Shown one piece after another: positions 6,549-64,000 of a stretch of 64,000 bases of DNA (position 1 is its first letter; each line of letters begins with the position of its first letter). A program made the translations under genes and the position numbers. Below the pieces are notes generated by a model. That model had not been told where the DNA came from and did no database searches. It saw only the letters and a list, made by a program, of their open reading frames with translations. The DNA is from Paracoccaceae bacterium (lineage in GTDB: Bacteria; Pseudomonadota; Alphaproteobacteria; Rhodobacterales; Rhodobacteraceae), in NCBI GenBank assembly GCA_009773375.1, contig WRPH01000005.1, positions 1 to 64,000 of the forward strand, written 5' to 3'.

Positions 6549-7477
6549 TCGACCTTCTGGGATATGGCGGCTTTTTCCTGTCTACCGCATTGATTTTCGG
6601 CCTGATTGCGCTGGGGCTGAACCTGCAATGGGGCCTGACCGGGCTGTTCAACGTCGGCATCGCCGGGTTTGTGGCGATTGGGGCCTATAGCTCGGCAATC
6701 CTGACCACGCCGGAAACGGTGGATCGGGTTGGCGGCTTTGGCTGGCCGATTGTGGCGGGCTGGCTGGCGGCCGCCGCGATCACGGCGACAGCGGCGGCGT
6801 TTACCGGCTATGCCACCTTGCGACTGAAATCGGATTATCTGGCGATCACCACCTTTGGCGTCGCCGTCGTGGTGCAACTGGTGGCGCTGAACGCGCAAAG
6901 CCTGACCGGCGGCCCGTTTGGCGTGGCGTTCATTCCGCGCCCCTTCGCTTCGGTGCAGGATCAGTCCGTGCTGTTCAACCTGTCAAATCTGGGCGTGATC
7001 GCCGCCGTAACGCTGGCGGTTTATCTGGCGCTGGAGCGGCTGTCGCGCAGCCCTTGGGGCCGGGTGCTGCGGGCGCTGCGCGAAGACGAACGCGCCGCGA
7101 TTGCCTTGGGCAAAAGCGCGCAGTCCTACCGGGTTCAGGCCTTTGCAGTCGGTGGCGCGGTGATGGGGCTGGCTGGGGCGGTGCAGGCGCATTTCATCGG
7201 CTTCATCGCGCCGGACAACTATCTGCCAACGCTGACTTTTCAGGTCTGGGCGATGCTGATGGTGGGCGGATCGGGCTCCAACCGCGGCGCGCTCTTGGGC
7301 GCAATCGTGGTCTGGGCGATCTGGGTCGGCTCCGGCTCTGTCACCGCGGCGCTTGTCCCCGCCGATCTGCAAGCCCGCGCCGCCTCGTTGCAGATCGTCG
7401 CCATCGGCGTCATGCTGTGCCTGATCTTGCTGTGGCGGCCGCAGGGCTTCTTCGGCTCCGGTCGGTCGCCGAAATGA
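6545..7477 (+). CDS. livM: Branched-chain-type ABC transporter permease (LivM-like)
   Basis: This inner-membrane permease of 310 residues starts at ATG 6545, overlapping the livH stop (ATGA). An upstream extension in the same frame has no start signal and would overlap livH coding sequence. Typical LivM features are LIALGLNLQWGLTGLFNVGIAGF in the first membrane segments, KSDYLAITTFG near residue 98, and the cytoplasmic EDERAAIALGKS loop that contacts the ATPases. It completes the LivFGHM importer. Confidence 0.92.
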   Translation: MIDLLGYGGFFLSTALIFGLIALGLNLQWGLTGLFNVGIAGFVAIGAYSSAILTTPETVDRVGGFGWPIVAGWLAAAAITATAAAFTGYATLRLKSDYLAITTFGVAVVVQLVALNAQSLTGGPFGVAFIPRPFASVQDQSVLFNLSNLGVIAAVTLAVYLALERLSRSPWGRVLRALREDERAAIALGKSAQSYRVQAFAVGGAVMGLAGAVQAHFIGFIAPDNYLPTLTFQVWAMLMVGGSGSNRGALLGAIVVWAIWVGSGSVTAALVPADLQARAASLQIVAIGVMLCLILLWRPQGFFGSGRSPK

Positions 7478-8754
7478 CCGATGATCCCGCCACGCTGTGG
7501 CACGCAACCGCCGCCGCTTTGCCAGCCTATCCCAGCCTGTCAGGCCCGGCAGAGGCCGATCTGCTGGTGATCGGCGGCGGCTTTTCCGGCCTTTCCACTG
7601 CGCTGCATGCCGCCGAGGCTGGCCTGTCGGTGATCTTGCTGGAGGCCCATCGCATCGCTTGGGGGGCCACCGGGCGCAACGCCGGTTTCGTGGTGCCAAA
7701 CTTCGCCAAGGTCGACCCTGATGCCATCCGCGCCAAACTGGGCACCAAGGCCGAGACGCTGATCACCATGGCGGCAGGCAGCGGCGATCTTGTCTTCGAT
7801 CTGATCCGCCGCCACGCGATTGCCTGCGAAGCGCAACAGGTCGGCTGGATTCAGCCCTCGCACAGCGAGGCCGCCTTCGCCAAGGCACAAGACCGCGTGC
7901 GGCAATGGTCGGCGCTGGCCCGGCCTGTGCACCTGCTGAACGCTGCCGAAGTCACCGCCCTCACGGGGGTAAACGGCTGGCGCGGTGGCTGGATAGACCG
8001 GTCGGGCGGCGTGCTGAACCCGGTCGGCTTTGCCCGAGGTCTGGCGCGGGCCGCAAACGCGGCAGGGGTGCGGATTCATGACTCCTCGCCCGTGACCGGC
8101 CTGCACCGCCACGGCACCGACTGGCAGGCGATCACGCCAAACGGCAAGATCACTGCGCGCCGGGTGGTGATGGCGACGAACGCCTATGTCGGCGATTTGT
8201 GGCCCAGACTGGCGCGCAGCTTCTTTCCGTTGCAGGTGTTTCAAGTGGCCACCGCGCCACTGCCGCTCAGCGTCCGCAGCCGCCTGCTGCCCGAAGGTCA
8301 ATGCGTTTCCGACAGCCGCCGCAATCTGTTCACTTTCCGCTTCGACGCGCAAAACCGCCTGATCAGCGGCGGCATGCACATTCTGTCGCTTGGTGCCAAA
8401 GCCCGCGTCCCCGCAGCAATCCACCGCCGCATGGCAAGATTTTTGCAGCTGCCAGACCTGCCGCCGCTCGCCTACCAGTGGTCCGGCATGGCGGCGGTAA
8501 TGCCGGATTTTCTGCCGCGCGTGGTCGAACTTGCGCCGGGTCTGATAGCCGGTTTTGCCTGCAACGGGCGCGGCATCGCGCTGTCCACCGCAATGGGGCA
8601 GCAACTCGCCGATTGGGCAAACGGCACACCTGCCGAGGCGCTTGCGCTGCCACTGAACCCCGCCAACCCGATCCCGCTGCACGCGCTGTCACGCCTCGCG
8701 CCGAACGCCTTGCTGCCGCTCAACATCATCCGCGATGGTCTGGAAAGCCGCTAG
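7474..8754 (+). CDS. FAD-dependent amine/amino acid oxidoreductase (DadA/PuuB-like)
   Basis: The 426-residue protein begins at ATG 7474, overlapping the livM stop. It has an N-terminal FAD-binding Rossmann motif (LLVIGGGFSGL, glycines at 34-39), then WGATGRNAGFV, which is characteristic of the DAO family including gamma-glutamylputrescine oxidase and D-amino acid dehydrogenase-like enzymes. The C-terminal FAD segment is PGLIAGFACNGRGIALSTAMG. These enzymes oxidise a C-N bond of a primary or secondary amine. Coupling to livM says the imported solute, or its product, is probably an amine or amino acid. The exact substrate is not readable. Confidence 0.85.
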   Translation: MTDDPATLWHATAAALPAYPSLSGPAEADLLVIGGGFSGLSTALHAAEAGLSVILLEAHRIAWGATGRNAGFVVPNFAKVDPDAIRAKLGTKAETLITMAAGSGDLVFDLIRRHAIACEAQQVGWIQPSHSEAAFAKAQDRVRQWSALARPVHLLNAAEVTALTGVNGWRGGWIDRSGGVLNPVGFARGLARAANAAGVRIHDSSPVTGLHRHGTDWQAITPNGKITARRVVMATNAYVGDLWPRLARSFFPLQVFQVATAPLPLSVRSRLLPEGQCVSDSRRNLFTFRFDAQNRLISGGMHILSLGAKARVPAAIHRRMARFLQLPDLPPLAYQWSGMAAVMPDFLPRVVELAPGLIAGFACNGRGIALSTAMGQQLADWANGTPAEALALPLNPANPIPLHALSRLAPNALLPLNIIRDGLESR

Positions 8755-8762
8755 CTGTGCCG

Positions 8763-11132
<2,370 letters not shown>

Positions 11133-11136
11133 CGCC

Positions 11137-12195
11137 ATGACAAAGCGCCAGAACTGGACAACCGAGCCGTGGGCCGACAGCGAACTGCTCGAATGCGCCA
11201 TGGTGATCCCCGAAACCGAAGATTGCGCCACCATCGCCTTTCGTGCGCCATCAGGCGCTTGGTTCGATTATCAGCCGGGCCAGTTCCTGACCTTCGATCT
11301 GCCGGTGCCCGGCGGCACCATCCAGCGCACCTATACGATCTCGTCCTCGCCATCGCGGCCGCTGTCGATTTCCATCACCATCAAGGCACAGCCGGGGTCC
11401 ATCGGCACGCGCTGGTTGCTGGATCATCTGAAACCGGGCATGCGGCTGCGCGCCTATGGGGCTGCGGGGCAATTCACCTCGCTGCGGCACCCGGCGCGGA
11501 AATATCTGTTCATCTCGGCAGGCTCTGGCATCACCCCGATGATGTCGATGACCACCTGGGCATGGGATTCGGGCGAAATGCCGGACATCGTCTTTGTGCA
11601 TGCCGCGCGCAAACCGTCTGATATCATCTTCAAGAACCGGCTGGAGCAATTCGCCAGCCGCGTCCCCGGCCTGCAACTGCGCTTTACTGTCGAGCAGGTC
11701 GAGCCGTTCTCGGTCTGGCCCGGTTATCGCGGGCGGCTGTCGCAGATCATGCTTGGCCTGATGGCCCCCGACTATCTGGAACGTGAAGTGTTCTGCTGCG
11801 GCCCGGAACCCTTCATGAAATCGGTGCGGGAAATGCTGGGGTCACTCGGCTTTGATCTGGCGCATTACCACGAGGAAAGCTTCGGCGCGCCTGCCTTGCA
11901 AGAGGTGCCGGTTGAACCTGCCGCGCCTGCCGTCGCCGCCGTGATGTCTTTCGCAGGCTCGGGCAAGACCGCCGCCTGTGACGGCAGCGAAACCGTGCTG
12001 ACGCTTGCCAAGCGCGCCGGGCTGAACATTCCGTCCAGCTGCAACTTCGGGCTCTGCGGCACCTGCAAAGTGCGCAAACTGTCCGGCGAGGTGATCATGG
12101 TACACAATGGCGGGATTTCAGACGATGAAATCGCCGCGGATTACATCCTGGCCTGCTGTTCGCGCCCGCAAGGCGATGTCACGATCGACCTCTGA
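11137..12195 (+). CDS. gbcB: Oxygenase reductase component (GbcB-like)
   Basis: This 352-residue flavin reductase passes electrons from NAD(P)H to the Rieske oxygenase. It has an FAD domain with RTYTISSSP, an NAD domain opening at ISAGSGITPMMSM, FCCGPEPFM before the linker, and a C-terminal plant-type [2Fe-2S] ferredoxin domain with ligands in CNFGLCGTC and a distal Cys in ILACCSRP. The layout is that of hybrid cluster-free GbcB/class IB reductases. It starts four bases after the gbcA-like stop, so the two form one operon under the divergent LysR regulator. Confidence 0.85.
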   Translation: MTKRQNWTTEPWADSELLECAMVIPETEDCATIAFRAPSGAWFDYQPGQFLTFDLPVPGGTIQRTYTISSSPSRPLSISITIKAQPGSIGTRWLLDHLKPGMRLRAYGAAGQFTSLRHPARKYLFISAGSGITPMMSMTTWAWDSGEMPDIVFVHAARKPSDIIFKNRLEQFASRVPGLQLRFTVEQVEPFSVWPGYRGRLSQIMLGLMAPDYLEREVFCCGPEPFMKSVREMLGSLGFDLAHYHEESFGAPALQEVPVEPAAPAVAAVMSFAGSGKTAACDGSETVLTLAKRAGLNIPSSCNFGLCGTCKVRKLSGEVIMVHNGGISDDEIAADYILACCSRPQGDVTIDL

Positions 12196-12216
12196 CGCAA
12201 CCCGGACAAAAGGCCA

Positions 12217-12253
12217 AATTCGCGCGGGCCGGGCACCGTCTGCCCGCGCAATT
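12217..12253. terminator. Hairpin after the Rieske reductase gene
   Basis: GCGCGGGC (12222-12229) pairs with GCCCGCGC (12242-12249), extended by AATT on both sides with one bulge. It follows the reductase stop by about 25 bases. There is no long T run, so it is a probable rather than certain terminator for the rightward operon. Confidence 0.4.
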
Positions 12254-12308
12254 CTGAACAAATCGTTAATGGCCTAACGCAAGCTATTGATTTTACACGC
12301 GTGCAACG

Positions 12309-12326
12309 CTGTCCACACGTGGACAG
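12309..12326 (-). repeat. 18-bp palindrome directly after a stop codon (copy 1)
   Basis: An 8-bp inverted repeat with a 2-bp centre lies immediately after the TAA (12327-12329) of the leftward hydroxybutyryl-CoA dehydrogenase gene. Read on the gene strand, its core is TGTCCACGTGTGGACA, identical to the core at 56821-56836 after lpxK. It may act as a transcript-end hairpin; there is no T run. Confidence 0.7.
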
Positions 12327-13202
12327 TTACCGTGTCGGAACCGGAACCTCGCCGCGATAGTCGTAGAAGCCCCGCTGGGTCTTCCGGCCCAACCAGCCCG
12401 CCTCGACATATTTCGACAGCAGCGGGCAGGGCCGATACTTGGTATCCCCCAGCCCTTCATGCAGCACGTTCATGATCGCCAGACAGGTATCCAGCCCGAT
12501 GAAATCCGCCAGCTCCAGCGGCCCCATCGGATGGTTGGCCCCCAGTTTCAGGCTTTCATCAATCGACTTCACCGACCCCACGCCCTCATACAGCGTATAA
12601 ACCGCCTCGTTGATCATCGGCATCAGAATCCGGTTGACGATGAAGGCAGGGAAATCCTCGGCGCTGGCGGCGGTCTTGCCCAGCTTGCCAACCACGGCCA
12701 GCAGCGTATCGTAGGTTTCCTTATCCGTCGCGATGCCCCGGATCAGCTCCACCAGCTGCATCACCGGAACCGGGTTCATGAAGTGGAAGCCCATGAACTT
12801 TTCCGGCCGATCCGTCCGGCTGGCCAGCCGGGTGATCGAGATCGACGAGGTGTTCGAGGTCAGGATCGTCTGCGGCGCCAGATGCGGCAACAGCCCGTCA
12901 AAGATCTGCTGCTTGATATTCTCGCGCTCCGTCGCCGCCTCGATGATCAGATCGCAAGGCCCCAGATCAGCCAGCGTCAGCGTCGTCTTGATCCGCCCGA
13001 TGGCGGCAGCCTTGTCTTCAGCCGCAAGCTTGCCCCGGCTGACCTGCCGCTCCATATTCTTGTCGATCGTCGCCACAGCTTTCGACAGCATGTCGGGATT
13101 CACATCGTTCAGCAGCACATCAAAGCCCGCCTGCGCGAAAACATGCGCGATGCCGTTGCCCATTTGCCCCGCCCCAACGATGCCAACCGACCGGATTTCC
13201 AT
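12327..13202 (-). CDS. hbd: 3-hydroxybutyryl-CoA dehydrogenase
   Basis: The 291-residue cytosolic enzyme reversibly oxidises 3-hydroxyacyl-CoA with NAD(P). It has the N-terminal dinucleotide-binding motif [13 protein letters not shown] (glycines from residue 10), the catalytic His region [17 protein letters not shown], and a C-terminal helical dimerisation domain with [18 protein letters not shown]. Length fits the single-function Hbd/PaaH family rather than the fused FadB. In this organism it could serve polyhydroxybutyrate and acetoacetyl-CoA metabolism feeding the ethylmalonyl-CoA pathway. etfBA lies just upstream on the same strand, separated by the DUF6473 gene on the other strand. Confidence 0.93.
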
Positions 13203-48708: not shown

Positions 48709-49859
48709 AAACCCGGCGCGCCCTTTGGCATCGGGTTCAGCGCCTTGTTATAGGCCTGCCAGTCGGTGATGTCGGCATAGTATTGCCGCCGCCACGCCCG
48801 CACGCGCGGGTTCATCAGCCGTTTCCACAGCGGCGGGATCATCGCGGCAATTGCCATCAGCGGATAGCCGCGCGGCAGTTGCGGCGCTTCCGCCTCGGTA
48901 TAGGTTTGCAACAGCGGAAAGCGGCGGTCGGGTTTGTAATGGTGATCCGAATGCCGCTGCAAATTGATCAGCAACCAATTCGAGGCGCGGTGCGAGGCGT
49001 TCCAGCTATGCCTTGGCAGCACATGTTCATAGCGCCCCTCGCCCAGATAGCGCCGGGTCAGCCCGTAATGTTCAACGTAGTTCACCAGCTCCAATTGCCA
49101 GACCGCCACCGCTGCCTGCCACAGGAACAGCGCCAGCCCGACCCAGCCGCCAAGGGTCAGCGCCAGCAGCAGCATCGCCGTCTGCAAGCCCCAATACCGC
49201 CAATAGGGGTTGGAAATATGCAGCGATTTCAAACCCTTGCGCGTCAGCATCGCTGCTTCGGCCCGCCATGCCGATTTGCGGCAGCCAAGCAGAACGCGCG
49301 GAAAAAACCGATGGAAGCCTTCGTTATAGCGCGCCGTCACAGGATCGCGCGGCGTGCCGACATACAAATGATGCACCCGCAGATGTTCGCTGCGGAAATG
49401 GCTGTACAGCACCATCGCCAACAGCAGGTCGCCCAGCGCCCGTTCCCACGCCGGTTTCTGGTGCATCAACTCATGCGCATAGTTGATGCCGATGGTGCCA
49501 GACACCACGCCCATGCCGAAAAACAGCACGATAGCTTCAAGACTGCCCAGATGCGGCGCGTTCGGCACATACCAGATCAGCCAGAACAGCAGCAGCAGTT
49601 GCACCGGCACCCAGATCAGCGTGACCAGCCGATACCAGATCAGCGCCGAGTCTGGCGTGGCCAGATCGGCATTATCCTCATTTCGCCCGGTCAGCGCGTC
49701 GAGCAGCGAGAACATCCCCCAGGAATACAGCGGCAACAGGCACACCACCCAGCCCCCTGCCAGCGCCCCCCAGACGGCCAGCGGCACCATGCCCAGTGAT
49801 AACCAGAACGGCAGGGCGTTCAGCGGGCGTTGCACTTCGGCGCTTGGGATGGTGGTCAT
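48705..49859 (-). CDS. alkB: Alkane 1-monooxygenase
   Basis: The 384-residue integral-membrane di-iron enzyme hydroxylates the terminal carbon of n-alkanes. All histidine boxes are present: HELMH at 129-133, EHLRVHH at 158-164, the AlkB-specific NYVEHYGL at 260-267, and LQRHSDHH at 300-307. Hydrophobic helices precede and separate them. ATG 49859 follows GAGG; the longer frame lacks a start signal. No rubredoxin gene is adjacent, so the electron donor must be encoded elsewhere. A LuxR-type HTH gene is coupled directly downstream. Confidence 0.92.
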   Translation of the reverse strand: MTTIPSAEVQRPLNALPFWLSLGMVPLAVWGALAGGWVVCLLPLYSWGMFSLLDALTGRNEDNADLATPDSALIWYRLVTLIWVPVQLLLLFWLIWYVPNAPHLGSLEAIVLFFGMGVVSGTIGINYAHELMHQKPAWERALGDLLLAMVLYSHFRSEHLRVHHLYVGTPRDPVTARYNEGFHRFFPRVLLGCRKSAWRAEAAMLTRKGLKSLHISNPYWRYWGLQTAMLLLALTLGGWVGLALFLWQAAVAVWQLELVNYVEHYGLTRRYLGEGRYEHVLPRHSWNASHRASNWLLINLQRHSDHHYKPDRRFPLLQTYTEAEAPQLPRGYPLMAIAAMIPPLWKRLMNPRVRAWRRQYYADITDWQAYNKALNPMPKGAPGL

Positions 49860-56939: not shown

Positions 56940-57737
56940 TCACGCCACCTGATCCAGCCAGTCGCGGAAGGATTCGACCACGGCGTTGTCACTATCCACC
57001 AGATACTGCGGGGCCGGATAGTCGCCTTCATGCACGTCGCGGGCAAAGCGGGACATGGCATCGATGCGCAGGTCTTGCAGGCGGTCGTATTCTGCGGCGA
57101 AGTCGGCGTAGCGCTTGGCATGGCGCGGCATGCGGCCCCGGTTCTGGCCCAGCACATCATCGCTGAACAGATATTGCGCATGCCCGGCAGCCCCTGCCCC
57201 CATCGAGATCAGGAAAAGATTGGTCTTTTCCGCAATCGCCTGGGTGATGGAATGCGGCACCACCTCTATTTCAACTGCGAAAGCACCAGCCGCTTCGGCG
57301 GCTTTGACCTGTTGCCAGACCAGCTTGGCGCTGTCCAAAGTCTTGCCGACCGCCTTGAAGCCCCCAGTCCAGGTGGCTTTGGAGGGGATCAGCCCGACAT
57401 GGCCACAGACCGGCAAACCGTGGTCGGTCATCGCACGGATGGTGGCCATCGATCCCGAGCAATAGAACGCATCCGCGCCATGCTTGAACAGCGGAAACGC
57501 CCATTTCAGGAAATCATCCGCCGTGCCGATTTCATAGAAATTGTCACCGGGGAAGATGAAGGCATCGGGGGCCACTTCACGAAAGCGGCGGTCGAACACC
57601 ATGGCCGGGGGCACCGACAGCAGTTCCACCCCGCCCTTGGCGGCGGCCTCGGCCTCTTCCAGCGTTTCGACGCGCAGCATGGCAAACTGATGCTTGCCGC
57701 GCTGATCGAGCAGGTCTTTGACAGTCAGACGCGCCAT
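56940..57737 (-). CDS. PanB (ketopantoate hydroxymethyltransferase) family protein, divergent
   Basis: The 265-residue TIM-barrel protein aligns by eye with PanB in its second half: GLPVCGHVGLIPSKATWTGGFKAVGKT, GAFAVEIEVVP with the catalytic Glu, and ISMGAGAAGHAQYLFSDDVLGQN. The canonical metal and substrate motifs are replaced: VGDS by SVPP and KLEGG by YCSGS. It is therefore unlikely to make ketopantoate. Relatives include phosphoenolpyruvate/isocitrate-lyase-like aldolases. It is the last gene of a leftward set with MocE- and MocD-like genes, two bases downstream of the ferredoxin gene. I infer an aldol or hydroxymethyl transfer step in that pathway. Confidence 0.8.
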   Translation of the reverse strand: MARLTVKDLLDQRGKHQFAMLRVETLEEAEAAAKGGVELLSVPPAMVFDRRFREVAPDAFIFPGDNFYEIGTADDFLKWAFPLFKHGADAFYCSGSMATIRAMTDHGLPVCGHVGLIPSKATWTGGFKAVGKTLDSAKLVWQQVKAAEAAGAFAVEIEVVPHSITQAIAEKTNLFLISMGAGAAGHAQYLFSDDVLGQNRGRMPRHAKRYADFAAEYDRLQDLRIDAMSRFARDVHEGDYPAPQYLVDSDNAVVESFRDWLDQVA

Positions 57738-57738
57738 G

Positions 57739-58050
57739 TTACGGCACCTCGATCAGGACGCGGTTGCCATCAACCTTGACCGGGAAGGTTTTCAGATTGA
57801 CGCAGACCGGGGCGCGCATTGCCTCGCCGGTGCGGTAATCAAACTGGCCGTTGTGCTTGGGGCATTCGATCATGAAATCCATCACCAACCCGTCGCACAG
57901 ATGCACATGTTCATGGGTGCACATCCCGGCGGTGGCGTAAAACTTGCCATCCACGCCGTGGTAGATCGCATAGGTGGCACCGCCATGATCAAAGCGGATC
58001 AGGTCTTCTTCGTCAATCGCATCGGTGGCGCAGGCGTCAATCCAGGGCAT
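57739..58050 (-). CDS. Rieske-type [2Fe-2S] ferredoxin, MocE-like
   Basis: The 103-residue soluble ferredoxin has Rieske ligands Cys44/His46 (GMCTHEH) and Cys63/His66 (ECPKHNG), with the TG-rich RTGEAMRAPVCVNLKTFPV tail. It matches MocE-type ferredoxins that pass electrons to the MocD oxygenase in rhizopine catabolism. The gene lies four bases downstream of the oxygenase gene and one base upstream of the PanB-like gene, so all three are one operon. The matching reductase (MocF) is not in the window. Confidence 0.88.
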   Translation of the reverse strand: MPWIDACATDAIDEEDLIRFDHGGATYAIYHGVDGKFYATAGMCTHEHVHLCDGLVMDFMIECPKHNGQFDYRTGEAMRAPVCVNLKTFPVKVDGNRVLIEVP

Positions 58051-58054
58051 CGTG

Positions 58055-59146
58055 TTACTCCGCAGCTTTGGGGGCCATCATGCCCGGAACGTATTGGTGA
58101 AAGTCTTCGCGATAGGGTTTTGCGGTGGGCGGCAATTCGCGCTTGAGGAAGTAATCCTCCTGAAACAGCTGGCGTTTCAGTGCGGGCCACATTTCGGCAA
58201 AGCCTTCGGCGATGGAGCGGTTTGGCGCGGGCAGATCGGCCTTGATGGTCTCATGCAGGCGCGGCAGGGCATGGTAGGGCACCATCGGGAACATGTGGTG
58301 TTCGACGTGGTAGTTCATGTTCCAGTAGATGAAGCGGCTGATCGGGTTCATGTAAACTGTGCGGCTGTTCAGGCGGTGGTCGATGACGTTGTCGGCCAGC
58401 CCGCCGTGCTGCAACAGCCCGGTCATGACGTGGTGCCACGCGCCGTAGATGCGCGGCAGACCGATCACCATCAGCGGCAGGATTGACCCCAGCGCAATCG
58501 CCAGTGCGACCGTGGCGGCATAGATCGCCAGATGGATTTGCGCGACGCGCTGCACCTTGGCCCATTCGCTTTGCGGCACGAAGGTCTTCTCGGCTGCCGT
58601 CGGACCGGCGACAGCGTTCCGGATCAGGTTGGGAAAGAAGGTGATCACATCGATGATGCCGAAGAAATTCAGGATCAGCTTGGCCAGCACGGTGGGCCGC
58701 ATCACCGCAATTTCGGGGTCGCGGCCCACGATGTAGGTTTCAGAGTGGTGGCGTGCGTGGCTCCAGCGCCAGGTGGCAGAGTTGCGCATGATCATGAAGG
58801 ACGAGATTTCATAGACGGCGTTGTTCATCCATGGCGTGCGAAAGGCGGTGCCGTGGCTGCATTCATGCCAGCGCGAATCGGAGGCCGAGCCGTAAAGCAC
58901 GCCGTAGGCCAGCCAGAACGGTAGCGACCACAAGGTCGGCCACAGCGCGATGCCTGCCCCGGCGAAAGCGATCATCAGGCCGTAAAGCAGCACCGTGTCG
59001 CGAATGGCCGGGCTGTCGCTGCGCGCCATCAGATCTTTCATCACCTTGCGCGGCACGTCGGTGTGATACCACTCGGCCGCTGTCAGACCGCTTTCGACCG
59101 CGCGCTTGGCGTCGGCACCAAAGGGGCTGTAATCCCGCTGTCCCAT
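58055..59146 (-). CDS. Fatty acid desaturase-like membrane di-iron oxygenase, MocD-like
   Basis: The 363-residue membrane protein has the three histidine boxes of the desaturase/hydroxylase family: H94-ECS-H98, H130-ARHH134 and H280-VEHH284, with the extra QHGGLADN...DHR segment near 246-260. Hydrophobic helices surround the boxes. Coupled to a Rieske ferredoxin, it most resembles MocD of rhizobia, proposed to remove the methyl group of rhizopine (3-O-methyl-scyllo-inosamine). ATG 59146 follows GGGAGGA. A general alkane or lipid desaturase is the alternative, but the catabolic neighbours favour substrate demethylation. Confidence 0.82.
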   Translation of the reverse strand: MGQRDYSPFGADAKRAVESGLTAAEWYHTDVPRKVMKDLMARSDSPAIRDTVLLYGLMIAFAGAGIALWPTLWSLPFWLAYGVLYGSASDSRWHECSHGTAFRTPWMNNAVYEISSFMIMRNSATWRWSHARHHSETYIVGRDPEIAVMRPTVLAKLILNFFGIIDVITFFPNLIRNAVAGPTAAEKTFVPQSEWAKVQRVAQIHLAIYAATVALAIALGSILPLMVIGLPRIYGAWHHVMTGLLQHGGLADNVIDHRLNSRTVYMNPISRFIYWNMNYHVEHHMFPMVPYHALPRLHETIKADLPAPNRSIAEGFAEMWPALKRQLFQEDYFLKRELPPTAKPYREDFHQYVPGMMAPKAAE

Positions 59147-59292
59147 ATCGTCCTCCCTCTCTGAGGTGCCCGCTGTCGGGCCTGTCTGTCGATAGACTGC
59201 AAAGGTGTGATTCACCAAGAGGCCGCCTTGCAAGTTTCATCAAAAACTATCAGAATTGCCACAATAATGATGTTGTTTCGTCAGGATATTAC

Positions 59293-60324
59293 ATGACCCG
59301 CCGCCCAACCATCCACGATGTCGCCCGCGAGGCGGGGGTTTCCACCGCCACGGTGGACCGGGTGCTGAACGCCCGCGAAAAGGTACGCGAAGACACCGCC
59401 CGCAGGGTCTACGAGGCGGCGCGACTGGTCGGCTATCACGCGACGCCGCTGATCGGGCAACGGGTGCAGATGGATCTGCCGCGGCTGCGGCTGGGCGTGG
59501 TGTTGCACAAGGAAAAGCAGGCGTTTTACCAGACCTTCAAGACCGAGATCGAACGTGCCGTCGCCCAGGCCACGGGCTTGCGCGCGTCAGCGATCATCGA
59601 GTTTGCGCCGTCGCAAACCCCTGCGGACTTTGCCGCGCTGATGGATGGGCTGGCGACCCGCGTCGATGCCGTGGCCGCGACGGCTGTCACGCATCCGGAA
59701 GTGACCGAAGCCGTCTTGCGGCTGAATGCCAAAGGTATCCCGTGTTTCGCGCTGCTGAACGATTTTGCCCAAGGCGTGCGGCAAAACTATCTTGGGCTGA
59801 ATAATATGAAGATCGGCCGGATTGCGGCGCATCTGATCGCGATTTCCAGCCATCAGGCGGGCAAGATCGCGGTGTTTGTCGGCGGCTATCGCTGGCACGG
59901 GCATGAGCTGCGCGAAACCGGGTTTCGCAGTTATTTCCGCGAATATGCGCCGCAGTTCACGGTGCTGGATACGCTGGTCAACCTTGAGACCCGGCAGTTG
60001 ACCTATGAGGCGACGCTGGACCTGCTGAACCGTCACCCTGATCTGCGCGGGATCTATTGCGCGGGCGGCGGGATGGAGGGGGCGATTGCAGCGCTGCGCG
60101 AGGTGCGCCAACCCGGCGAGGTGACGCTGGTTGTCAACGAATTGACCCCCGAAAGCCGCGCGGCGCTGATTTCGCGCTATGTCGGCATGGCGATTGCCAC
60201 GCCACTGGGCAAGCTGTGCGCCGACCTTGTGACGGTGGCGGCGGAAGCCGTGCGCGACGGAATCACCCCGCTACAGGGCCAACATTTCCTGCAACCCGAC
60301 CTGTATCTGCCGGAATCGGTATGA
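59293..60324 (+). CDS. LacI family transcriptional regulator
   Basis: The 343-residue regulator has the LacI helix-turn-helix and hinge (PTIHDVAREAGVSTATVDRVLN, residues about 5-26) and a periplasmic-binding-protein-like effector domain. The STATVDRVLN variant of the usual VSRVLN is common in LacI proteins controlling cyclitol and sugar import. ATG 59293 gives the family's N-terminus; the longer frame runs through the divergent oxygenase gene. It sits between the two arms of the locus and probably represses both until a pathway sugar binds. Confidence 0.9.
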   Translation: MTRRPTIHDVAREAGVSTATVDRVLNAREKVREDTARRVYEAARLVGYHATPLIGQRVQMDLPRLRLGVVLHKEKQAFYQTFKTEIERAVAQATGLRASAIIEFAPSQTPADFAALMDGLATRVDAVAATAVTHPEVTEAVLRLNAKGIPCFALLNDFAQGVRQNYLGLNNMKIGRIAAHLIAISSHQAGKIAVFVGGYRWHGHELRETGFRSYFREYAPQFTVLDTLVNLETRQLTYEATLDLLNRHPDLRGIYCAGGGMEGAIAALREVRQPGEVTLVVNELTPESRAALISRYVGMAIATPLGKLCADLVTVAAEAVRDGITPLQGQHFLQPDLYLPESV

Positions 60325-60327
60325 TTC

Positions 60328-60375
60328 TGATGTAAATCACATCATGTCGTCATGGCATTCACATCATTTCTGATG
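60328..60375. promoter_or_regulatory. Candidate LacI-type operators
   Basis: Two dyads lie in the 134-bp gap before the isomerase gene: TGATGT-5-ACATCA (60328-60344) and CATCA-4-TGATG (60362-60375). Both share the TGATG half-site. The same TGATGT also occurs at 59268-59273 in the gap upstream of the LacI gene. This recurrence on both sides of the regulator gene supports shared control, though binding is inferred. Confidence 0.45.
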
Positions 60376-60458
60376 GAAAAACCTATGCGCTGAATTGACC
60401 TATTGAAATTCTCGTAACATGGTCTGGCCTCAACACCGCACGGATGGGAGACCAAGCG

Positions 60459-61277
60459 ATGACAGCTTTCGCACTGAACCACATGACGGTCGCCCGTCTG
60501 AACTATGTCCAGCTTCTGGACCTTGCCGCAGCTTTGGGCTGCATTGGCGTCGAGGTGCGCAACGACCTGCGGCAGCCGCTGTTTGATGGCATGGGCCCGG
60601 CAGAAGCAGGCGCATTGGCCCGCGCCAAGGGGCTGCGGCTTTTGGCGGTGGCCGAGGTCAAGCGCTTCAATGACTGGTCCGATGACAAGGCCGCCGAGGC
60701 GCTGGCGCTGATGCAGATTGCCAAGGCGGCAGGGGCAGAGGCGGTCAGCCTGATCCCGCGCAATGACAATCTGGGCATGGGCAACGGCGAGCGGCAAGCC
60801 GCACTGCGTGTTGCGCTGAAGGCGCTGAAACCGATGCTGGAGGATCACGGTCTGGTCGGTATGGTCGAGCCGCTGGGTTTCGAGATTTGCGCGCTGCGCT
60901 ACAAATCCGAAGCTGTCGAGGCGATTGAGGCGATTGGCGGCAAGGGCCGGTTCAAGCTGGTGCATGACACCTTCCACCACACGCTGGCGCATGGCGGGGC
61001 GTTTTTCCCCGAGCATACCGGCATCATCCATATCTCGGGCGTGGTAGACAAGGCCGTGACGATTGGCCAGATGACCGATGCGCACCGGGTTCTGGTGGAT
61101 GGTGCCGACCGTCTGGGCAACATCGACCAGATCGCAGCGCTGCAGGCGCTGGGCTACGGCGGTCCGGTCAGCTTTGAGGCCTTTGCGCCACAGGTCCATG
61201 CCAGCACGCATCCGCAGGCCGATCTTGCCGCGTCGATCCAGTTCATCCGCGAGGCAATGCAAAAACGCGCCGCTTAG
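60459..61277 (+). CDS. TIM-barrel sugar isomerase/epimerase (IolE/MocC-like)
   Basis: The 272-residue protein is an AP endonuclease-2 family TIM barrel (xylose isomerase-like). It shows LLDLAAALGCIGVEVRND at residues about 19-36, a central LVGMVEPLGFE with a metal-binding Glu, and LVHDTFHH with Asp/His ligands. The family includes inosose dehydratase IolE, MocC, hydroxypyruvate isomerase and tagatose epimerases. ATG 60459 follows GGGAGA. It is the first rightward gene of the sugar locus and likely isomerises or dehydrates the imported cyclitol or sugar. Confidence 0.85.
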   Translation: MTAFALNHMTVARLNYVQLLDLAAALGCIGVEVRNDLRQPLFDGMGPAEAGALARAKGLRLLAVAEVKRFNDWSDDKAAEALALMQIAKAAGAEAVSLIPRNDNLGMGNGERQAALRVALKALKPMLEDHGLVGMVEPLGFEICALRYKSEAVEAIEAIGGKGRFKLVHDTFHHTLAHGGAFFPEHTGIIHISGVVDKAVTIGQMTDAHRVLVDGADRLGNIDQIAALQALGYGGPVSFEAFAPQVHASTHPQADLAASIQFIREAMQKRAA

Positions 61278-61414
61278 TGCGAATCGTTGCGTCTTGTGTC
61301 GTTTTGCAATTTATGTTGCGCGACGGCTGCCACGGCGGCCCGAAAGAATTGCCGCGTTCTACGCGGTCCGGCAGGAGGAGCGAGGCAAGCCGGGCCTCGC
61401 ACAGGGAGAGAAAC

Positions 61415-62353
61415 ATGAAGAAATACGTTTTTGCAGGCGTCGTCGCCCTTATGGGCACCAGCGCAATGGCCGACGGTATCGGTGTGTCGATGGCCAAGTT
61501 TGACGACAACTTTCTGACCGTTCTGCGCAACGGCATTCAGACCCAGGCCGATGCGGCCGGTCTGAAAGTGCAGATTGAAGATGCGCAGAATGATGTGGCC
61601 AAGCAGTTGGACCAGATCAACAACTTCATCGCCTCGGGCGTGTCGTCGATCATCGTCAACCCGGTGGATACCAGCGCCACGCAAGCGATGTCGGACGCCG
61701 CCGCTGCTGCCAACATCCCGCTGGTTTATGTGAACCGTCAGCCGATCAACGTTGACACCATGCCGGACAATCAGGCTTTCGTGGCGTCGAACGAAGTGGA
61801 CTCTGGCACGCTGGAAACCATCGAGGTCTGCAACCAGCTGAAGGCCGCCGGCAAGGACAAGGCATCGGTCTATGTGATGATGGGCGAGCTTTCCAACCAG
61901 GCCGCCGTGCAGCGCACCGCCGACATCCATGATGTGATGGCGGCTGGCAAATGCTCGGTCGAACTGACCATCATCGACGAGCAGACCGCCAACTGGTCGC
62001 GCGACGAAGCGCAGAACATGATGACCAACTGGCTGTCCTCGGGCACCGCGTTTGATGGCGTGATCGCCAACAACGACGAAATGGCCATCGGTGCCATTCA
62101 GGCGATGAAGGCCGCAGGCATTGATATGGCGACCGTCGTGGTCGGCGGTATCGACGCGACGCAAGACGCTTTAGCTGCGATGCAGGCCGGTGATCTGGAC
62201 GTGACGGTGTTCCAGAACGCGGCAGGGCAAGGTGCGGGCGCGTTGGACGCCGCCACCAAGCTGGCTGCGGGCGAAGCGGTTGAGCAGAAGGTCTATATCC
62301 CGTTCGAACTGGTGACCCCGGCGAACGTGGCAGATTACGCCGCCAAGAACTAA
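61415..62353 (+). CDS. Sugar/cyclitol ABC substrate-binding protein (MocB/IbpA-like)
   Basis: The 312-residue periplasmic protein has a signal peptide (residues 1-19, ending SAMA before DG) and a type I sugar-binding fold. Its opening GIGVSMAKFDDNFLTVLRNGI and the loop FIASGVSSIIVNPVDTSAT are very close to inositol- and rhizopine-binding proteins rather than ribose or xylose ones (recalled pattern). NNDEMAIGAIQAMKAAG near residue 228 forms part of the pocket. A GGGAGAG site precedes ATG 61415. It feeds the permease and ATPase encoded next. Confidence 0.88.
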   Translation: MKKYVFAGVVALMGTSAMADGIGVSMAKFDDNFLTVLRNGIQTQADAAGLKVQIEDAQNDVAKQLDQINNFIASGVSSIIVNPVDTSATQAMSDAAAAANIPLVYVNRQPINVDTMPDNQAFVASNEVDSGTLETIEVCNQLKAAGKDKASVYVMMGELSNQAAVQRTADIHDVMAAGKCSVELTIIDEQTANWSRDEAQNMMTNWLSSGTAFDGVIANNDEMAIGAIQAMKAAGIDMATVVVGGIDATQDALAAMQAGDLDVTVFQNAAGQGAGALDAATKLAAGEAVEQKVYIPFELVTPANVADYAAKN

Positions 62354-62431
62354 GCGATCCGTTTTGCAGACCTGTGACGGGGCGGCGGTCTTTTGCCGCC
62401 CCGCTTTATGCCGACCCAGAAAGGGAACCCC

Positions 62432-63502
62432 ATGGCACAGACATCACATGGCATCGGAGGCCTGACCTACGATCCTGCCAAGAAAGCAAGGCCGCCGGAA
62501 CTGAACGTGTTGATGGCGCTTGTGCTGATCACCGCCGCGTTCGAGTTGATCGGGCGGGTGTTTCTGGGCGACAGCTTTTTGTTCAACACCCGCGATAACG
62601 TCGAAGGCATCTTCAACTGGCAGCGGCTGAACATCATCATTCTGCAGGTTTCGATTGTTGGCATCATTGCTCTGGGCGTGACGCAGGTGATCATCTCGGG
62701 CGGGATTGATCTGTCGTCGGGGTCGATCGTCGGGGCGACGGCGATGATCGCGATGAGCTTTGCACAGACCGAACTGGTCAACGGCAACCCGAACCCGAAA
62801 GCGATTTTCGGCGACTGGGCGATGGATTTGCCGGTGATCGTGCCGGTGCTGGTCGGGCTTGGCTGCGGGCTGATGGCCGGATTTGTCAACGGCGCGTTGG
62901 TGGCATACACGCGCATCCCACCGTTCATTGCCACGCTGGGCATGATGGTTTTCGCGCGCGGGCTGTCGCGCTGGTGGTCGAACGGCAACCCGGTGTCTTT
63001 CCCGACCGAAGGCTATGCGGCGATTGGCAAGGGCATGATGCCCGTGGTGATTTTCGTGTCGCTGGCGATCCTGTTCCACCTGATCCTGACCCAGACCAAA
63101 TACGGCAAACATTGCTATGCGGTGGGGTCAAACGAGCAGGCCAGCCGGATGTCGGGGATCAAGGTCAACAACCACAAGGTCTTGGTCTATAGCATCGCCG
63201 GGATGCTGGCCGCTTTGGCTGCGGTGGTGCTGTCATCCAAGAACCTGACCGCACAGGCGGGCATGGGGGTGATGTATGAACTGGACGCCATCGCCATGGC
63301 GGTGATTGGCGGCATCAGCCTGCAGGGCGGGCGCGGGTCTATCCTGGGCACGGTGCTGGGCGCGCTGATTTTCGGGGTGATCATCTCGGGGTTCACCTTT
63401 CTGAAACTCGACGCCTATTATCAGGAAATGGTGAAGGGCGTGATCATCGTCGGTGCCGTGGTGCTGGACCAGTGGCGTCAACAGAAGCGGGGGCGGGGGT
63501 AA
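62432..63502 (+). CDS. Sugar ABC transporter permease (CUT2/RbsC-like)
   Basis: The 356-residue inner-membrane permease has about ten hydrophobic segments and CUT2 family motifs, GVTQVIISGGIDLSSGSIVGA near residue 95 and YAVGSNEQASRMSGIKV near residue 240, which couples to the ATPase. MYELDAIAMAVIGGISLQGGRGS follows. ATG 62432 has an AAAGGGA site. In this family a single permease gene works as a homodimer with a double-domain ATPase, whose gene follows four bases later. Confidence 0.92.
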   Translation: MAQTSHGIGGLTYDPAKKARPPELNVLMALVLITAAFELIGRVFLGDSFLFNTRDNVEGIFNWQRLNIIILQVSIVGIIALGVTQVIISGGIDLSSGSIVGATAMIAMSFAQTELVNGNPNPKAIFGDWAMDLPVIVPVLVGLGCGLMAGFVNGALVAYTRIPPFIATLGMMVFARGLSRWWSNGNPVSFPTEGYAAIGKGMMPVVIFVSLAILFHLILTQTKYGKHCYAVGSNEQASRMSGIKVNNHKVLVYSIAGMLAALAAVVLSSKNLTAQAGMGVMYELDAIAMAVIGGISLQGGRGSILGTVLGALIFGVIISGFTFLKLDAYYQEMVKGVIIVGAVVLDQWRQQKRGRG

Positions 63503-63506
63503 AGCC

Positions 63507-64000
63507 ATGAGCAACATCATTCTTGAAACCCGCGGCCTGACCAAACACTACGGCGGCGTGCATGCGCTGTCGGATGCCAACTTCATCCTGCACAAGGGCG
63601 ATCATGGGCGACAACGGCGCGGGAAAATCGACTTTCGTGCGGCAGTTGACCGGGGTTGAACAGCCGACGCGTGGCCAGATCGTCTTTGACGGGGTGGAAC
63701 ACAGCTTTGCCAGCCCGATCGAGGCGCGCGAGGCCGGGATTGAAACCGTGTTCCAGAACCTTGCGCTGGCCGATGATCTGGATGTGCCGTCGAACCTGTT
63801 TCTGGGCCGCGAGAAGTTCCGCTTCAAATTCGGCCCGTTCTCGGTGCTGGACAAAAAGGCGATGCGCGATGCGACGACGCAGGCTTTGATCAAGACCGGG
63901 GTGAAAATCCCCAACCTGATGAACACCATCCGCAACATGTCGGGCGGGCAGCGCCAATGCGTGGCCATCGCCCGCACCGCCGCCTTCAAATCCAAGCTGG
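63507..64000 (+). pseudogene. Sugar ABC transporter ATPase, frameshifted and cut by the window end
   Basis: The gene starts at ATG 63507 with SNIILETRGLTKHYGGVHALSDANFILHKGD, the N-terminus of CUT2 sugar ATPases. At about 63598-63603 the frame shifts. The original frame reaches TGA at 63657-63659. A second frame opens at 63604 with MGDNGAGKSTFVRQLTGVE (Walker A) and continues uninterrupted to 64000, including ETVFQNLALADDL and MSGGQRQCVAIART. The family normally reads about five extra residues (GEHVAIMGDNG) at the junction, so 11 bases seem to be missing. It is either a real pseudogene or an assembly error; the rest of the gene is beyond the window. Confidence 0.82.

Follow-up and report, generated by a model that had tools for sequence, protein, structure and literature searches.

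What brings a membrane di-iron oxygenase, a Rieske ferredoxin and a relative of the pantothenate enzyme PanB into one operon, back to back with a sugar importer? The question is raised by positions 56,940 to 64,000 of a 64,000-nucleotide stretch (hereafter the window) of contig WRPH01000005.1 from a Paracoccaceae bacterium (assembly GCA_009773375.1). Gene content and context indicate that the locus probably encodes a LacI-controlled system for the uptake and oxidative O-demethylation of an O-methyl-inositol, for example pinitol, ononitol or another cyclitol ether of this kind. In the proposed pathway, the importer would take up the O-methyl-inositol, and the oxygenase MocD would hydroxylate its methyl group with electrons delivered via the ferredoxin MocE, plus the reductase MocF where present. 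The resulting hemiacetal would fall apart into the free ring and formaldehyde, a release suggested by the nature of the MocDE family and by purU and folD nearby in relatives, and the dehydrogenase IolG and an IolI/IolH-like TIM barrel would channel the ring into the inositol pathway. The one-carbon (C1) unit would, at least partly, pass to tetrahydrofolate, from which FolD and PurU may lead on to formate in several relatives. The PanB-like protein, termed PanBL, would most likely take part in handling this C1 unit, either by binding the hemiacetal or formaldehyde or by passing the C1 to folate, through one half of PanB's reaction carried out without a metal. The features of the locus are as follows; the start codons of the plus-strand genes are our choice.

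56940..57737, minus strand: PanB-like protein (PanBL), 265 aa, final gene of its operon; PF02548, 122.9 bits (cut-off 28.7)
57739..58050, minus strand: MocE-family Rieske 2Fe-2S ferredoxin, 103 aa; TIGR02377 (MocE_fam_FeS), 167.5 bits (cut-off 136.15)
58055..59146, minus strand: MocD-like membrane di-iron oxygenase, first gene of its operon; PF00487 (FA_desaturase), 128 bits
59147..59292, no strand: intergenic region separating the two divergent operons, inspected in sequence; presumed shared control region
59293..60324, plus strand: LacI-family regulator with a sugar-binding-type sensor domain; PF00356 and PF13407
60444..61277, plus strand: xylose-isomerase-like TIM barrel, IolI/IolH-like; PF01261; PDB 2q02, 4hgx and IolI 1i60
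61415..62353, plus strand: periplasmic substrate-binding protein of the importer; PF13407, 168.7 bits; best solved chain 4yo7
62432..63502, plus strand: ABC importer permease; PF02653, 152.9 bits
63507..64000, running beyond the window, plus strand: ABC importer ATPase, frame broken near 63.6 kb
64315-65316 (window numbering, just beyond the window), plus strand: IolG inositol 2-dehydrogenase; TIGR04380, 427 bits (cut-off 355)

The oxygenase operon and its conserved neighbours

The genes of MocD, MocE and PanBL form one tight minus-strand operon, all read in one direction with gaps of 4 and 1 bp. Profile matches recovered every gene that an earlier, sequence-only reading of this DNA had placed here. 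That reading called the PanB-family gene divergent, which is true of its sequence but not of its orientation, which is the same as that of MocD and MocE. The three histidine boxes of MocD, at residues 95-99, 131-135 and 281-285 of a 364-residue reading, are invariant in 16 aligned rows, and in a phylogenetic tree the protein groups with moc-type MocD. Elsewhere in the window, outside the locus, positions 48855-49529 hold a further FA_desaturase-family match. On the opposite strand, a profile search against NCBIfam revealed IolG directly after the importer ATPase, on the same strand and the same contig (C71).

A conserved linkage among relatives supports the grouping. When 84,980 species genomes were searched by pattern, 269 PanBL relatives were obtained, from which the best 80 by similarity to the window PanBL were kept, mainly from Rhodobacteraceae and Rhizobiales; the following counts refer to those loci with enough flank. 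MocD lies beside PanBL in 73 of the 73 testable loci and MocE is present in 75 of 76, LacI adjoins the operon in 69 of 71, and the TIM barrel is found in 56 of 63. The complete importer (binding protein, permease and ATPase) is present in 51 of 58, so that the trio usually keeps company with a sugar importer, as the catabolic model of the sequence-only reading supposed. MocF (36/76) and IolG (24/58, at least 50% identity) are less constant, and the binding protein is absent from L014, L040, L072, L073, L077 and L079 despite at least 9 kb of upstream sequence. The linkage of MocD, MocE, LacI and the TIM barrel with PanBL is far beyond chance.

The association is looser when counted from MocD. 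Among 198 genomes of the window's family, 54 have MocD, 48 have PanBL and 36 have both. Strong PanBLs, defined by a border of 340 bits that we chose, have MocD within 8 kb in 31 of 43 cases, and PanBL is found within 8 kb of 37 of the 68 MocD genes. PanBL is thus not always present beside MocD.

Structural comparison showed that the TIM barrel is nearest to the solved chains 2q02 and 4hgx, and weakly resembles IolI (1i60). Its residues E142, D175, H196 and E245 are invariant in six aligned rows and align with what we take to be the metal ligands of IolI. It had been described as IolE/MocC-type, an assignment that was rejected, as no NCBIfam model matched it at E 0.01. The importer ATPase has a frame change at about 63.6 kb, near its N-terminus, for which an assembly error and a real defect are both possible. 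A shared LacI operator was sought in the intergenic region and nothing convincing was found, and no MocF reductase was found in the window locus.

The inositol link and rhizopine-type loci

In L150, L152 and L153, which belong to the window's family, the importer operon continues via IolG into iolC, iolD, iolE and iolB, with MocD divergent. All of these assignments in L153 exceed the NCBIfam cut-offs (IolC/J 711, IolD 931, IolE 382, IolB 335 and IolG 422 bits). In L154, PanBL, LacI, IolG, iolD, iolE and iolB are present, MocD is absent and iolC is partial by tblastn. The link extends to another family: PanBL-MocE-MocD adjoin LacI, the TIM barrel, IolG and iolB in L130, and PanBL occurs with PurU, iolC, iolD and iolB in L132. 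Compared to myo-inositol (iol) operons with an ABC importer, the window has the same importer and IolG, followed in L150, L152 and L153 by iolC, iolD, iolE and iolB, and differs by the added MocD-MocE-PanBL oxygenase operon.

In the window genome, the remaining inositol genes lie outside the operon of the window: iolE at C71:94587 and C67:18627, iolB at C67:17755, and an iolD-like gene (47% identity) at about C71:92.7 kb. The surrounding stretch C71:80000-99000 is a carbohydrate region that holds the iolD-like gene, iolE, several Gfo/Idh-like dehydrogenases and another importer. At the level of whole genomes of the family, IolE is present in 24 of 33 genomes with a PanBL of at least 340 bits versus 41 of 150 without PanBL (p 1.8e-6). 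The distance between PanBL and IolE is at most 42 kb in 11 genomes, including the window genome (37.6 kb) and one with a weak PanBL (G442). A general inositol specificity of PanBL was rejected, since the weaker PanBLs (below 340 bits) show no such link, with IolE in just 5 of 15 genomes.

Rhizopine loci offer the closest known system. In 1998, Bahar reportedly proposed MocDEF as the system that strips the methyl group from 3-O-methyl-scyllo-inosamine. Among 14 records with a MocR relative of at least 80%, seven moc-type loci were examined, in R. leguminosarum (L090, L170), R. lentis (L172), R. indicum (L173), S. meliloti (L169, L171) and Phyllobacterium (L168); the label 'moc' reflects similarity and the order of the genes rather than a comparison with L5-30's own sequence. 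The genes are arranged as IolE and binding protein, then MocD, MocE, MocF, PanBL and PurU, with the MocR relative between binding protein and MocD. This order was read from gene tables for six loci and from tblastn, for the components tested, in all seven; L171 is unannotated and relies on tblastn alone, as does the MocD of L169, which is absent from its gene table. The row MocD-MocE-MocF-PanBL-PurU is complete in 7/7, and FolD follows in five of the seven, being absent from both S. meliloti loci. In L090, the MocR-like and PanB-like genes (7332-8832 and 11756-12542) are each split over two reading frames. The MocD of L090 nests among PanBL-linked MocDs with moderate support (90/95), and this PanBL-linked group, L090 included, is set apart from pelagic relatives at 100/100. 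The moc-type loci carry MocDEF-PanBL-PurU, and the trio of the window thus recurs in a system whose substrate is a known O-methylated cyclitol.

The genes downstream of mocF point to a folate-bound C1 unit. In the passages available, the rhizopine operon is given as mocDEF, mocR, mocBA and mocC, with a mocD promoter induced by scyllo-inosamine (PMC10107442). The main text of that paper mentions neither panB, purU, folate nor formaldehyde, and that of a further rhizopine paper mentions neither panB, purU nor folate (PMC6668481).

Compared to the rhizopine locus mocCABRDEF (S. meliloti L5-30, R. leguminosarum), the window is alike in MocD (70% identity to L090), MocE (64%), the binding protein (62%), a Gfo/Idh dehydrogenase, the inositol link and PanBL, which follows MocF in the moc-type loci. 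It differs in its LacI in place of the MocR-type regulator (GntR-aminotransferase), in the IolI/IolH-like TIM barrel in place of IolE, in having importer permease and ATPase genes of its own next to that of the binding protein, and in the lack of MocF, purU and folD at the locus. The window binding protein is 68% identical to that of the iolCDEB operon in L153. On the rhizopine binding-protein model NF052284 it reaches 40.3 bits against a cut-off of 420, and the moc-type binding protein of L090 does not reach the 1e-20 limit with this model either. Because the relatives' operon continues into iolCDEB and rhizopine-type loci share the MocDEF-PanBL set, the substrate can be narrowed to an inositol-type compound. 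On these grounds, together with the conserved importer, the catabolic reading proposed earlier holds in a narrower form, that of an O-methylated inositol-type compound; its idea of PanB must change.

Pinitol is one candidate. The pairing of an IolI-like isomerase with IolG would suit a D-chiro-inositol ring, which is that of pinitol. Root exudates contain pinitol and similar O-methyl-inositols, according to passages of PMC5789663 and PMC12573493. In the former, Mimosa root exudate raises the mocDEF-like, mocB-like importer and iol genes of R. mesoamericanum, and pinitol is given as its most concentrated compound, at 145 uM. This induction is at least as compatible with pinitol as with rhizopine. 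In the accessible parts of the open-access literature searched, we found no description of a bacterial pathway for O-methyl-inositol demethylation.

PanBL and the one-carbon unit

PanBL has the fold of ketopantoate hydroxymethyltransferase (KPHMT, PanB) but not its metal site. Its AlphaFold model (pLDDT 88.7, 22 rows) gave the KPHMT structures 1oy0, 3vav and 1m3u as the top Foldseek matches, with a TM of ~0.67, followed by weaker matches to PEP mutase/isocitrate lyase-type enzymes. The protein stays below both panB equivalog cut-offs (TIGR00222, 91.9 vs 207.55; NF001452, 108.9 vs 272). We take the Mg ligands of PanB to be D45, D84 and E114, joined by K112, in the numbering of the E. coli enzyme. 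In all 28 rows of the PanBL alignment (A1), D84 is replaced by G, K112 by Y, and E114 by S, A or P, and the positions of E181 and H136 are kept in 28/28. The region of D45 aligns poorly and lacks a conserved acid, and in more distant PanBLs the K112 position is often M or H. PanBL forms a clade of its own (100/100), apart from panC-linked PanB (three rows) and from a third PF02548 group. This third group (L121-L129), lying between PanB and PanBL, retains D45, K112 and S46 (the last being C or A in some members), whereas D84 and E114 are lost; in G028, one such gene adjoins an FA_hydroxylase gene. Judged by these residues and by its clade, PanBL is not a normal ketopantoate hydroxymethyltransferase.

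The available passages of a study on R. etli agree. A panB mutant there is a pantothenate auxotroph despite the PanBL RHE_PE00443 of plasmid p42e, which has only 5 of 12 active-site residues and which, when expressed additionally, failed to bring growth back (data not shown in that study; PMC3082293). We take RHE_PE00443 to be locus L084, the sole place found on p42e. As this protein cannot replace PanB, the R. etli member is, by that account, not a pantothenate enzyme.

If not pantothenate, what does PanBL serve? Its neighbours suggest an answer. In a sample of 385 genomes of the window's class, PanBL at 195 bits or more was found in 25 copies in 21 genomes, the border having been set after a gap between 197 and 155 bits was seen. 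An oxygenase of one of four families (FA_desaturase, FA_hydroxylase, PhyH or Rieske) lies within 3 kb of 14 of the 25 copies (1.1 expected) and within 5 kb of 15 (1.7 expected), compared to one of 11 other PF02548 genes used as a control, which were drawn from the listed part of the class-sample matches. All FA_desaturase and FA_hydroxylase matches entered this count; PhyH and Rieske matches entered individually only on PanBL contigs where judged near, and otherwise as per-genome counts, with Rieske oxygenases taken as open frames of about 300 aa or more and counted by hand. The resulting p of ~1e-13 is too small, owing to the relatedness of the genomes and to a model derived mostly from MocD-linked rows. 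Because of the latter, the MocD links arise partly by selection, which does not apply to the PhyH and Rieske links.

A parallel case lies within the window genome. Contig C9 (L088, 5000-15400) carries a second cluster with LacI, an FA_hydroxylase-type oxygenase, importer, MocE, TIM barrel, PanBL and an IolG-like dehydrogenase, and such a cluster was found also on a Gemmobacter plasmid. Two plasmid loci of Rhizobium and Shinella (L098, L099) hold an FA_hydroxylase-type oxygenase, MocE, a ferredoxin reductase, a binding protein and a TIM barrel, with PanBL absent from the stretch. A 1.6 Mb low-GC genome (G161, L136-L138) contains four PanB-like genes along with FA_desaturase matches (seven) and PhyH matches (eleven); one of its loci combines an importer, two MocD-like and one FA_hydroxylase gene, MocE, MocF and PanBL.

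Folate genes recur beside PanBL. Sixteen of the 80 loci contain purU, and in 10 of 66 it lies at most 1.8 kb downstream of PanBL, nine times on the same strand and once, in L040, on the facing one. In loci of Chelativorans, Nitratireductor, Paramesorhizobium and Rhizobium, purU comes after PanBL; in other Rhizobiales it ends the importer operon. It is accompanied by folD in L014, L085 and L095. Where full-length, the copies are ~48-81% identical to the purU of L085, a divergence that suggests more than one recruitment. The purU-mabO-folD operon of pAO1 is a known case in which purU and folD accompany demethylation (PMC3891541). By the passages on that operon, C1 from nicotine demethylation is handled by FolD and PurU, as suggested for the window's relatives; it differs in that a flavin oxidase itself makes the methylene-folate, that an N-methyl rather than an O-methyl group is removed, and that PanBL is not mentioned there (PMC3891541). 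The C1 role given to the PanB-family enzyme in the sequence-only reading thus gains from purU and folD in relatives' operons, but PanB chemistry cannot be assumed with D84, K112 and E114 replaced throughout. Among the roles considered, a folate- or formaldehyde-linked one in C1 handling seems to us the likeliest for PanBL.

Alternative substrates and roles

The substrate might instead be rhizopine (3-O-methyl-scyllo-inosamine) or another methylated sugar, the inositol link then reflecting shared downstream enzymes. Such a substrate would explain the 70% identity of MocD and 62% identity of the binding protein to a moc-type locus and the shared MocDEF-PanBL set, and MocD relatives do accompany other sugar importers (L164, L166). 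The regulator, however, is LacI rather than MocR-type, the binding protein shares more identity with its counterpart from an iolCDEB operon (68%) than with the moc-type one (62%), and its score on the rhizopine model is a mere 40 bits against 420, a comparison tempered by the failure of the L090 protein at the 1e-20 limit; rhizopines are also called rare in nature in the accessible text of PMC6668481. We regard this substrate as rather improbable next to an O-methyl-inositol. That MocD acts on membrane lipids, or yields a ring-hydroxylated or desaturated product with no methyl loss, is suggested by its membership of the FA_desaturase family. The sugar importer, IolG and iol genes that constantly accompany it, the purU and folD in relatives' operons, and a cluster that matches in all else but has an unrelated FA_hydroxylase-type oxygenase make this very unlikely, and the membrane-lipid reading in particular is unlikely on context.

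For PanBL, the stronger competitor is a function unrelated to C1, as a lyase, isomerase or hydrolase acting on the oxidised ring or another oxygenase product. The weaker fold matches to PEP mutase/isocitrate lyase-type enzymes, the loss of the PanB metal site and the existence of MocDEF-purU without PanBL (L094) would all suit such an enzyme. Oxygenase partners from four families would not be expected of it, nor would a purU that, in 9 of 66 loci, follows PanBL within 1.8 kb on its strand, faces it in one more, and follows it in 7/7 moc-type loci; we therefore hold it to be unlikely, though a serious contender. A second pantothenate enzyme placed there by accident, as the database name and PF02548 membership might imply, was rejected: contig C66 of this genome carries a normal panB with a panC-like gene behind it, the metal-site residues of PanB are gone, and, in the passages cited, the R. 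etli relative cannot replace panB (PMC3082293). Its chance is negligible.

Several observations weigh against oxidative demethylation of an O-methyl-inositol with PanBL handling the C1 unit. The p-values for conserved linkage overstate independence, because the loci were chosen by similarity to the window protein and the rows are related. No PurU above cut-off was detected in the window genome. The PanB mechanism is not simply transferable to PanBL, because PanBL lost the metal site. The authors of the exudate study took the induction in R. mesoamericanum as rhizopine use, as stated in the passages available (PMC5789663). In the class sample, 10 of 25 PanBLs, including two at contig edges, have no oxygenase of the four families within 5 kb. 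In the family sample, PanBL is missing within 8 kb of 31 of the 68 MocD genes, some of which stand at contig ends. L156, L157 and L158 are MocD-importer-IolG-iol clusters with no PanBL in the stretch, and in L094 (Nitratireductor rhodophyticola) purU directly follows MocDEF, PanBL being missing from the stretch. Because such MocD clusters exist, PanBL is not required for demethylation, and an obligatory role was rejected. So PanBL would assist demethylation rather than perform it.

The demethylation of an O-methyl-inositol remains our preferred reading of the locus. If it is right, a widespread alphaproteobacterial cluster whose genes now carry the labels fatty acid desaturase, ferredoxin and pantothenate enzyme could be tested as a pathway for O-methyl-inositol demethylation. 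More tentatively, and with somewhat less than even confidence, we suggest that PanBL may represent a new metal-free branch of PanB and a general partner of oxidative demethylases, moving C1 units from MocD-, FA_hydroxylase- and PhyH-type and Rieske oxygenases to folate, and an unnoticed part of the rhizopine operon. If true, such a role would keep formaldehyde low, and a PanB relative that works with several families of oxygenase would offer a new means of dealing with formaldehyde at its place of origin.

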